This document shows, piece after piece, positions 59,669-64,000 of a stretch of DNA of 64,000 nucleotides. Position numbers and translations under genes: made by a program. Below the pieces are notes generated by a model that was given only the letters and a program-made list of their open reading frames with translations, ran no database searches and was not told the origin of the DNA. Source of the stretch: an uncultured Roseobacter sp. (lineage in GTDB: Bacteria; Pseudomonadota; Alphaproteobacteria; Rhodobacterales; Rhodobacteraceae); contig NZ_CANMNK010000001.1 of assembly GCF_947499265.1 (NCBI RefSeq), positions 18,501-82,500 on the forward strand, in the 5' to 3' direction. The stretch's first letter is position 1; each line of letters opens with the position of its first letter.

Positions 59669-60507
59669 TTCCGGAAATTGTGCACCTGCATCACCTGATC
59701 GATCAATATGATGCCTTTCTGATTGATCAGTTTGGTGTGCTCTTGGACGGCAGCCAAGCCTATCCTGGTGCCGCGGAAGCGCTTGGCTTAATTGCGAAAC
59801 ACAAAAAACCGGCGATCATCCTGTCCAATTCGGCCAAACGCAGTAAGAACAACTGCGATCGATTGGTTTCATTTGGTTTTGACCGCCGCCATTTCATTAC
59901 CGTTGTTACCTCCGGTGAAATCGCCTACCAGGGCATCGCGCGAGAGATTGGGGCATCCATCGACACGAGTGCCCGCGTCATGCTGCTGGCCCGCGAAGGA
60001 GATTCATCTCCGATCGCCGATCTTGGGCTGATTGAAACAAAAAACTCCGCTGAGGCGGATATTCTTCTCATCGCAAGCCGTGATCTCTCTTGGTCACGCG
60101 ATGACTATCTTGCCGTCTTTAGACAATTTCGACGCGACGGCGGCAGATGTATCTGTCTCAACCCGGATCTGAAAATGCTGACGCCTCAAGGGCTGAGGTT
60201 CAGCGCCGGGGCGATTGCGCAAATCTTTGAGGGTTTGGGCGGCACCATCGAATGGTACGGAAAACCACATTCCATTATTTACAAACGCGCTCTTGAATTG
60301 ATGCCGGAGGTCCGCGCGGAACGCGTGCTTTGTATCGGCGACAGTATCCACCATGATATCCTTGGAGGTGCAACCGCAGGTCTATCAACCGCATTGGTTC
60401 GAAGCGGCGTTCATGCAAATATGTCAGACAAAGAGCTTTGGGCAACCTGCTCGGAATTGTGCGCAACCCCCGACTATGTCCTTGAGCGTTTCTCAACGGA
60501 CCTTTAA
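59665..60507 (+). CDS. HAD superfamily class IIA hydrolase (TIGR01459-like)
   Basis: DAFLIDQFGVLLDGSQAYPGAAEALGLIAKHKKPAIILSNSAKR; RVLCIGDSIHHDILGGATAGLSTALVRSGVH. Confidence 0.88.
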   Translation: MIPEIVHLHHLIDQYDAFLIDQFGVLLDGSQAYPGAAEALGLIAKHKKPAIILSNSAKRSKNNCDRLVSFGFDRRHFITVVTSGEIAYQGIAREIGASIDTSARVMLLAREGDSSPIADLGLIETKNSAEADILLIASRDLSWSRDDYLAVFRQFRRDGGRCICLNPDLKMLTPQGLRFSAGAIAQIFEGLGGTIEWYGKPHSIIYKRALELMPEVRAERVLCIGDSIHHDILGGATAGLSTALVRSGVHANMSDKELWATCSELCATPDYVLERFSTDL

Positions 60508-60677
60508 TTGCCGCAGGTTTCGATCAAGGCGGCGTTACAACAAGCAAATCAAAAGCAAGAAGATAGCGGAGGCATATGCTGAACTAGCCGATAAACGCAG
60601 TTAAAGCGCCTAAGCGGTAGCGTGTTATGTGTATGGAGGGAAATCGAAAGAGAGATACGTAAACAGAGGTTTTACTA

Positions 60678-60795
60678 GGTTTGGCGGTGACCTACTCTCC
60701 CACGTCTTAAGACGCAGTACCATCGGCGCGACGGCACTTAACTGCCGAGTTCGGGATGGGATCGGGTGTTTTGCTCGCGCTATGACCACCAAACC
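60678..60795 (-). rRNA. rrf: 5S ribosomal RNA (ends approximate)
   Basis: Minus strand reads ggtttggtggtcatagcgcgagcaaaacacccgatcccatcccgaactcggcagttaagtgccg...gtgggagagtaggtcaccgccaaacc. Confidence 0.93.
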
Positions 60796-61308
60796 ATGAA
60801 AAACCTCTGTCGTCCAAGTCACGCACTCTAATGTGCTGTGTATGCTTTTGATTTATCCTAGAAAATCTCTCTTCTACTGGATCAAATCAAGCCTATCGGG
60901 CAATTAGTACCAGTCAACTGAACACATTGCTATGCTTACATCTCTGGCCTATCGACGAGGTGGTCTACCTCGGCCCTCAGGGATACCTTGTTTTGAGGGG
61001 GGCTTCCCGCTTAGATGCCTTCAGCGGTTATCCTTTCCGATCATAGCTACCCTGCACTGCTGCTGGCGCAACAACAGGTCCACCAGTGGATCGTTCACCC
61101 CGGTCCTCTCGTACTAGGGGCAACTCCTCTCAAGTATCCTACACCCACGGAAGATAGGGACCGAACTGTCTCACGACGTTCTAAACCCAGCTCACGTACC
61201 TCTTTAAACGGCGAACAGCCGTACCCTTGGGACCTGCTCCAGCCCCAGGATGAGATGAGCCGACATCGAGGTGCCAAACACTGCCGTCGATATGGACTCT
61301 TGGGCAGT

Positions 61309-61362
<54 letters not shown>

Positions 61363-61500
61363 TCGGGACCACCGGATCACTATGGCCGTCTTTCGACTCT
61401 GCTCGACTTGTCAGTCTCGCAGTCAGGCTGGCTTCTGCCATTGCACTCAACGAGCGATTTCCGACCGCTCTGAGCCAACCTTCGCGCGCCTCCGTTACGC

Positions 61501-61532
<32 letters not shown>

Positions 61533-61790
61533 ACCACACAGGGTCCCGGATCCGGATAACGGACCGCGGTTAGACATCAAGCAGAACAAGGGTGGTATCT
61601 CAAGGGAGGCTCCACGCAAACTGGCGTTCACGCTTCAAAGCCCACCACCTATCCTGCACATGTTCGGCCTAATGCCAGTGTGAAGTTGTAGTAAAGGTGC
61701 ACGGGGTCTTTCCGTCTAACCGCGGGAAACCTGCATCTTGACAGGTAATTCAATTTCGCTGAGTCTATGTTGGAGACAGCGGGGAAGTCG

Positions 61791-61873
<83 letters not shown>

Positions 61874-62608
61874 TGGGCTTCAATTCAAGGCTCTCACCTC
61901 TCCTTTTAACCTTCAGGCACCGGGCAGGCGTCAGACCCTATACGTCGTCTTGCGACTTCGCAGAGCCCTGTGTTTTTAATAAACAGTCGCCACCCCCTGG
62001 TTTGTGCCCCCAGCCAATACTTGCGTAGAAACTGGGCCTCCTTCTCGCGAACTTACGGAGGTATTTTGCCGAGTTCCTTCAACATAGTTCTCTCAAGCGC
62101 CTTGGTATTCTCTACCAGTCCACCTGTGTCGGTTTAGGGTACGATCTAGCGATGGAGCTATTTCCAGGAACCCCTTAGCCGCCCATTCAATCCAATAAGG
62201 ATGAACGACCTTCGGGATCCGTCACTTCCATCTGGCCCAGGAATATTAACCTGGTTCCCATCGACTACGCCTTTCGGCCTCGCCTTAGGGGTCGGCTTAC
62301 CCTGCTCAGATTAGCTTTAAGCAGGAACCCTTGGACTTTCGGCGACAGTGTCTCTCACACTGTTTGTCGCTACTCATGTCATCATTCTCACTAGTGATCT
62401 CTCCACCGGATCGCTCACGCGCCGGCTTCACAGAAAACTCCGCGTGTCCAATCCGGGCGAACCCGGTAAGGACACATGGAATTATGTCACACTACGCTCT
62501 GCTACCATGCAATAAATGCATCCTAAGCTTCGGCTCATGGCTTGAGCCCCGTTACATCTTCGCCGCAAGACAACTTATTTAGACCAGTGAGCTGTTACGC
62601 TATCTTTA

Positions 62609-62639
<31 letters not shown>

Positions 62640-63140
62640 TTGTTTTGGTCGTCTCACCTGCTTTCCCACTTAGCCATGAATTAGGGGCCTTAGCTGTAGG
62701 TCAGGGTTGTTTCCCTCTCCACGACGGACGTTAGCATTCGCCGTGTGTCTGCCATCTAGTACTCCTCGGTATTCGGAGTTTGGTTAGGATCAGTAAGCCT
62801 GTGGGGCCCCATTACCCATCCAGTGCTCTACCCCCGAGGGTATTCGGATGACGCTCTACCTAAATAGATTTCGCAGAGAACCAGCTATCTCCGAGTTTGA
62901 TTGGCCTTTCACCCCTAGGCACAACTCATCCCGATCTTTTTCAACAGATGTGGGTTCGGTCCTCCAGTACGTGTTACCGTACCTTCAACCTGGTCATGCC
63001 TAGATCACTCGGTTTCGGGTCTGATCCCACGAACTCGACGCCCTATTAAGACTCGCTTTCGCTGCGCCTACACCTAACGGCTTAAGCTTGCTCGTGAGAC
63101 CAAGTCGATGACCCATTATACAAAAGGTACGCCGTCACAA

Positions 63141-63160
63141 GACTGGAGATCAATTTGGAT
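63141..63160. repeat. IVS inverted repeat arm (3' side in rRNA sense)
   Basis: gactggagatcaatttggat. Confidence 0.85.
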
Positions 63161-63165
63161 CGTGT

Positions 63166-63654
63166 TCAGAAATTGAAGGTATAGCGCACCGCCAGCGTTT
63201 CACCGCCAGGGTTTACATCTTCAATGTCCGCGTTTGATTTGTGGTCAATTGCAATCGATATCCGGCCGCTGTCCGTCAGCTTGTAGCCAACGCCGAGCAA
63301 CGTTCTGAATTGCAAGTTCCCACCCAATGGGCTGCCACCCGTGCCCTCATCGTAGTAGCCAGGCATGAAGCTGCCTTCTACGAACCAGGGGCCTTCGCTG
63401 ATCATCCAAATGGCATAGACACCGACACCGACGAAAACGTCTCCGTCTGCGTCGATCTGCCCAGCACCCGCCAAAGAATAAGACGCCGTGCGACCCGAAA
63501 AGAACGGGTCAGCGTGATATTCAAGAATGAAGGCACCGGATTGTGTATCCGTTTGGTCCAACACATCGTCCACACCCAGACCGACGACAAACTCGTCGGC
63601 AAAAGCAGTGGTTGATGCAAGTGCGAAGGTCAGTATGGAAGCGATATTTTTCAT
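63166..63654 (-). CDS. PagL-like outer-membrane lipid A 3-O-deacylase / acyloxyacyl hydrolase encoded inside the 23S IVS
   Basis: 162 aa with signal peptide MKNIASILTFALASTTAFA; C-terminal IAIDHKSNADIEDVNPGGETLAVRYTFNF with H-x-S and E at S+12, ending in an aromatic-rich beta-barrel-like terminus. Confidence 0.8.
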   Translation of the reverse strand: MKNIASILTFALASTTAFADEFVVGLGVDDVLDQTDTQSGAFILEYHADPFFSGRTASYSLAGAGQIDADGDVFVGVGVYAIWMISEGPWFVEGSFMPGYYDEGTGGSPLGGNLQFRTLLGVGYKLTDSGRISIAIDHKSNADIEDVNPGGETLAVRYTFNF

Positions 63655-63667
63655 AACTTCCAATGAC

Positions 63668-63687
63668 ATCCAAATTGAACTCCAGTC
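63668..63687. repeat. IVS inverted repeat arm (5' side in rRNA sense)
   Basis: atccaaattgaactccagtc. Confidence 0.85.
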
Positions 63688-64000
63688 AAGCTCCGACTGA
63701 TTGTAGGCGTTCGGTTTCAGGTACTGTTTCACTCCCCTCGTCGGGGTGCTTTTCACCTTTCCCTCACGGTACTGGTTCACTATCGGTCAGTAAGGAGTAC
63801 TTAGCCTTCGAAGGTGGTCCTCCGATCTTCAGACAGAATTTCACGTGTTCCGCCCTACTTAATACGTCCAATCATGCTTCTTATACGGGACTATCACCCA
63901 CTCTGGTTGCGCATTCCAACGCATTCTAACCACACTCATGGCTCGGCTGGTCCCCGTTCGCTCGCCGCTACTAGGGGAGTATCAATTGATTTCCTTTCCT

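Follow-up and report, generated by a model that had tools for sequence, protein, structure and literature searches.

Does the open reading frame (ORF) lodged in a 23S rRNA gene of an uncultured Roseobacter sp. encode a working protein, and by what route might a gene in such a position be expressed? The stretch analyzed (the window) comprises 64,000 nt, and its rRNA operon is encoded on the minus strand, where a 5S gene (60679–60793, −; Rfam RF00001) accompanies the 23S gene (60883–64000, −; Rfam LSU_rRNA_bacteria RF02541, 2388 bits, model positions 214–2925), the 5′ end of which lies beyond the window. ARAGORN identified no tRNA in the whole 64-kb window; tRNA-Met is absent 3′ of the 5S gene (60380–60678), the position that it occupies in two other loci (L003 and L004). 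The 23S gene is normal apart from a 547-nt insert in helix 25 (H25; 63141–63687, −), with 23S junctions ...CAGTCGGAGCTT on one side and TTGTGACGGCGTACC on the other; in rRNA sense, ...CCTACAATCAGTCGGAGCTT is followed by the 547 nt and then by TTGTGACGGCGTACC.... In five Roseobacter species H25 is empty and has a 12-nt loop (CAGTTGGAG-GGCCCTTGTGGCC-TGACAGCG or similar), and the window sequence is thus an insertion into H25. The base of H25 also differs within Roseobacter, with CAGTCGG/GACGGC in 10/10 carriers (window 63688–63700 and 63130–63140) and CAGTTGG/GACAGC at 5/5 empty sites (L129–L133); empty sites in other genera show both states.

The insert begins and ends with 20-nt inverted repeats that match at 19 of 20 positions, the single mismatch being U.U in the RNA, and they form the 5′ arm (GACTGGAGTTCAATTTGGAT; 63668–63687, −) and the 3′ arm (ATCCAAATTGATCTCCAGTC; 63141–63160, −) of a putative excision stem. 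Between the arms is a pagL-like ORF of 162 codons plus stop (63166–63654, −; ATG at 63654, stop at 63166) on the same strand as the rRNA, which leaves 13 nt to one arm and 5 nt to the other and is the sole sizeable rRNA-sense ORF filling the insert. The original prediction, of an H25 insert at 63141–63687 bounded by 19/20-bp inverted repeats and amounting to a one-gene cassette, is therefore borne out by the sequence, the Rfam match, and the congeneric empty sites. An intron or transposon was considered and rejected: no group I or II intron family was among the Rfam matches in the window, and no recombinase, transposase, intron core, or homing nuclease was found in the insert by ORF list, Rfam, or Pfam.

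The encoded protein matches the Pfam PagL family (PF09411; E = 2e-14, 54.3 bits against a cut-off of 23), as do all rRNA-borne proteins tested. PagL was the only Pfam match of the window ORF, with none to the S23/IVS protein family, and NCBIfam gave nothing over cut-off. When a profile built from nine rRNA-borne proteins was searched against the PDB, the single significant chain was 2ERV, the PagL of Pseudomonas aeruginosa (E = 8e-6); the alignment pairs IHYSNAGLKQPNDGIES with IDHKSNADIEDVNPGGET, placing H, S, N, and E at PagL spacing. The catalytic residues His-Ser-Glu (H138, S140, and E152, in the stretch H138-x-S140-N141 ... E152 at 63199–63243, −) thus align to those of 2ERV, and they are invariant in alignment A2. 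An AlphaFold2 model from a six-sequence alignment is an 8-strand barrel (pLDDT 81.8), for which 2ERV was the top Foldseek match (TM 0.62–0.68); other 8-strand barrels score close behind, and the fold alone is not specific for PagL. The N-terminus (residues 1–19, MKNIASILTFALASTTAFA; 63598–63654, −) resembles a signal peptide by eye, with probable cleavage after AFA, and is of low confidence and unstructured in the model. By family, then, the window ORF encodes a true PagL-type protein, which would act as a lipid A deacylase, in keeping with the envelope enzyme originally proposed. A second type of PagL (type B; L050, L086, L099, L109, and other loci) starts MADGTFAVL..GLTDM..NHCG..GCL, a hydrophobic stretch lacking the basic residues that signal peptides usually have.

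Across family- and order-level samples and follow-up searches, PagL ORFs borne in H25 occur in 36 Rhodobacteraceae species from 21 genera (by genus codes), five of which (G292, G369, G528, G630, and G043) were seen in part only owing to N runs or contig ends; the insert is N in G065 and G088, and partly N in the first four of those five. A PagL match was obtained in 104 of 397 family genomes, with a subset located between the two H25 halves once the surrounding DNA was fetched; of the 154 family genomes in which H25 was matched, 127 had an empty site, 20 held PagL, and seven held something else or were unresolved. Within Roseobacter, 10 of 19 whole genomes carry the insert, and a contig scan recovered the same 23S insert in four genomes of the genus (R. 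insulae YSTF-M11, sp. WL0113, and two uncultured). The insert is in 3/3 23S copies of G336, in both copies seen in G281, and in the sole 23S copy found in G010 (a one-contig genome) and in G160. The suggested search for related H25 inserts with PF09411 ORFs, including in other rrn copies, was thus productive. Although the window genome is a draft of 28 contigs, an artefact of assembly or contamination has a negligible probability and is already refuted: independent assemblies share the junctions, and the recurrence of this arrangement in 35 further species, including one-contig (G010) and multi-copy rrn (G336) genomes, excludes misassembly and chance. One of the seven (G176; L160, G176:C169) has a fully read 508-nt H25 insert without PagL, with a similar stem start (CTTGACTGGACTC) and short broken frames; by eye these resembled a frameshifted TM2-type protein, but the pieces had no Pfam match and were given no assignment.

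The terminal stem has been maintained as RNA. Among 20 different arm pairs, standard pairing accounts for 95.8% of cells, and both sides have changed in a compensatory manner at 11 of 20 stem pairs; none of 500 shuffles matched the observed values, except for the pair-type count (13/500), and the signal was lost when partners were slid by one to three columns. The internal U.U is nearly fixed (25 of 26 distinct stems). The PagL proteins of subfamilies A and B are only 26–31% identical to each other, and the covariation indicates that the stem is kept as RNA across this divergence. By its location in one of the variable 23S helices (9, 25, or 45) with an empty-site counterpart, and by its stem, the insert is an intervening sequence (IVS) of 23S rRNA, and it is the stem that points to excision here. 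As predicted, the stem is of the kind that RNase III can cleave; its conservation, together with what is known of the IVS class (PMC4990558, PMC8708148), suggests that it would be cut by RNase III, fragmenting the rRNA.

The rRNA-borne pagL ORFs analyzed evolve under purifying selection. Median dN/dS (NG86) is 0.10 for seven Roseobacter A1 ORFs, 0.14 for three A2 ORFs, and 0.10 for six B-type ORFs, similar to chromosomal pagL (0.14–0.15), with the exact values being rough because many pairs are saturated, or nearly so, for dS. Substitutions concentrate at third positions (e.g., 634, 367, and 1646 at positions 1, 2, and 3), and the frame is unbroken in every PagL insert readable in full; the randomly decayed ORFs that would have counted against the original prediction were thus not encountered among homologous PagL inserts. 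A chance ORF is ruled out by dN/dS and the PagL match. It is very improbable that the IVS is selfish or neutral and that its ORF rides along unexpressed, as concluded for S23p of Coxiella. Such a passenger would accord with the quick degradation to which excised IVS RNA can be subject (PMC4990558) and with the weak and occluded Shine-Dalgarno site of the window, but not with a dN/dS of ~0.1 across lineages with near-saturated dS, with retention of the catalytic triad, or with two further patterns, namely the mutual exclusion of rRNA-borne and chromosomal pagL in Roseobacter and the retention of the ORF after escape from the rRNA gene.

The first of these patterns concerns the whole PagL complement as detected with the general PF09411 model. 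All 10 insert-bearing Roseobacter genomes have exactly one PagL, the rRNA-borne one, whereas all five with empty H25 have one PagL elsewhere (Fisher p = 0.0003, a statistic that ignores shared descent); four Roseobacter assemblies without a detected 23S gene have no PagL. In the wider family, a second pagL is excluded less strictly (1/20 vs. 34/127, p = 0.045), and G160 has both an rRNA-borne PagL and another pagL. Genus g281 repeats the exclusion pattern, with six carriers (one seen in part) vs. one empty-H25 species, G500, in which a chromosomal B-type pagL (G500:C2:1585803-1586315) is 34 kb from the empty 23S gene.

The second pattern is provided by one of the five empty-H25 Roseobacter genomes (G017), the real 23S gene of which is empty at H25. 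This genome has an intact pagL outside any rRNA gene (L014, 1393–2041; G017:C11), between decayed remnants of 23S H25 (upstream, ~67 nt of 23S with 81% identity; downstream, ~28 nt with 86%). The stem energy at this locus is −7 kcal/mol vs. −31 to −37 kcal/mol in carriers. Judged from these remnants, L014 is a natural escape of pagL from an rRNA gene, showing loss of the stem and of a hairpin at the translation start (see below) with the frame kept. Because the RNA features have decayed and the frame has not, the protein is apparently what selection keeps, and the stem belongs to the rRNA setting; we regard this decay pattern as the strongest single argument for selection at the protein level. 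L014, if functional, must also be expressed without rrn transcription, as would suit a functional pagL that has its own promoter in the 23S gene or the insert, with the stem serving only to prevent the insert from harming the ribosome. We consider such an arrangement unlikely for the rRNA-borne copies, since the ATG of the window is 34 nt from the insert edge, which allows no space for a promoter within the insert, the 23S sequence upstream is conserved, and same-sense transcription of rrn inevitably passes through the ORF. A TTGACT at the insert edge was set aside by eye as a −35 box, as the start point would be at or after the ATG.

A PagL tree divides type A (signal-peptide) from type B (MADGTF), each with rRNA-borne and chromosomal members. 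Well-supported branches require at least six changes of location, and the best tree a minimum of 14, this being a quick tree with many open branches; the 23S tree of Roseobacter has too poor a resolution for gains and losses to be placed. These location changes, and the presence of two distant PagL subfamilies that share this site and have similar stems, could indicate a mobile cassette, that is, an element spreading by insertion into H25 with pagL as cargo. This is improbable, given that, as noted above, the ORF list, Rfam, and Pfam revealed no mobility gene or intron core in the insert, and that gene replacement inside an old IVS, combined with losses, can give the same pattern. Because the A and B stems are alike (CTTGACTrGA...), we favor one old IVS, with many exchanges or losses of its ORF, rather than repeated insertions de novo. 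A search of PLSDB with a B-type protein gave six distant matches, of which the annotated ones are labeled acyloxyacyl hydrolase; no rRNA-borne copy was identified among the six.

How much protein such an RNA might yield is suggested by its translation start. In the window, a weak Shine-Dalgarno sequence (GGAAG, 63657–63661, −; anti-SD duplex −3.4 kcal/mol) is 2 nt before the ATG, and a hairpin (63625–63671, −; folding z −2.8) holds both it and the start codon. The hairpin is found in 10/10 Roseobacter inserts (z −2.8 to −5.2), and is missing from the escaped copy L014 (z +2.4) and from the chromosomal genes L017 and L018; B-type inserts have no start hairpin and stronger Shine-Dalgarno sites. 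Because its 3′ strand is partly coding, amino-acid constraint may contribute to the conservation of this hairpin. We hypothesize that it restrains how fast an abundant RNA is translated; a weak Shine-Dalgarno and a start site within a conserved hairpin argue against unlimited translation of such an RNA.

A conserved enzyme gene embedded in rRNA is real, and its best explanation, which we consider probable, is that the insert is a 23S IVS carrying a working PagL-type gene, for which rrn transcription and RNase III excision provide the mRNA for a real enzyme. The insert would be transcribed from the rRNA promoters within pre-23S rRNA, and RNase III would cut the terminal stem (20 bp, including the U.U mismatch) to leave a two-piece 23S rRNA and an RNA of ~0.5 kb. 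The released RNA, or the uncut precursor, would then be translated, at a rate limited in Roseobacter by the start-site hairpin, and the PagL product would be exported to the outer membrane. Lipid A remodeling might in this way be coupled to ribosome synthesis and to growth rate, as originally proposed. Counting against this explanation are the weak and occluded Shine-Dalgarno of the window, the fate of the IVS in the best-studied precedent, Coxiella (see below), the looser exclusion in the wider family together with the two pagL genes of G160, and the PagL-free H25 insert of G176.

In its helix, its terminal inverted repeats, and its replacement of the small H25 loop, the insert resembles the RNase III-excised H25 IVSs of Salmonella and Campylobacter; those are typically ~100–200 nt and without ORFs (PMC2672173, PMC8708148), whereas PagL inserts are ~550–740 nt and have a conserved enzyme gene. 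The IVS that encodes S23p, which occurs in Coxiella, Leptospira, Brucella, and Xanthomonas (PMC4990558), likewise has a single small rRNA-sense ORF filling the space between the strands of an RNase III-type stem. S23p is, however, a four-helix bundle of unknown role, the ORF of which is decaying in Coxiella, where it is probably untranslated and the excised IVS RNA is quickly degraded (PMC4990558), unlike the predicted catalytic outer-membrane barrel under purifying selection encoded by the PagL insert. Protein-coding inserts in rRNA genes are also known from Deinococcus, Nostoc, and CPR bacteria (PMC2672173, PMC11270868), but these have transposase or homing-endonuclease ORFs and thus encode their own mobility, whereas the PagL insert codes for an envelope enzyme of the host and for no mobility function. 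The payload therefore differs from the kinds named in the papers searched (ORF-free inserts, S23p, transposases, and homing endonucleases), and no paper linking 23S inserts to PagL or a lipid A deacylase was found in the literature searched, most subscription papers being outside its reach. The window protein shares with P. aeruginosa PagL (2ERV), a lipid A 3-O-deacylase, the barrel fold and the H-x-S-N...E spacing, although overall identity in the fold alignment is low (14–15%) and the gene is within 23S rRNA; to our knowledge, known PagL genes stand alone.

Inserts in bacterial rRNA have mostly been regarded as junk or selfish, with S23p, transposases, and homing nucleases as the known ORFs. 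Annotation pipelines commonly discard coding calls that overlap rRNA genes, and rRNA-borne genes may therefore be widely overlooked. If the explanation given here is true, it would represent a new way of expressing a protein, via the rRNA transcript, would subject outer-membrane chemistry to control by rRNA promoters, and would offer a testable function for IVSs. For the family as a whole, we see an even balance for and against a broader proposal: that in many Rhodobacteraceae the excised 23S spacer is the mRNA of an outer-membrane enzyme, maintained by selection and usually from the only pagL of the cell, such that lipid A remodeling would track ribosome synthesis, and that pagL has been shuttled repeatedly between the rRNA slot and chromosomal sites.
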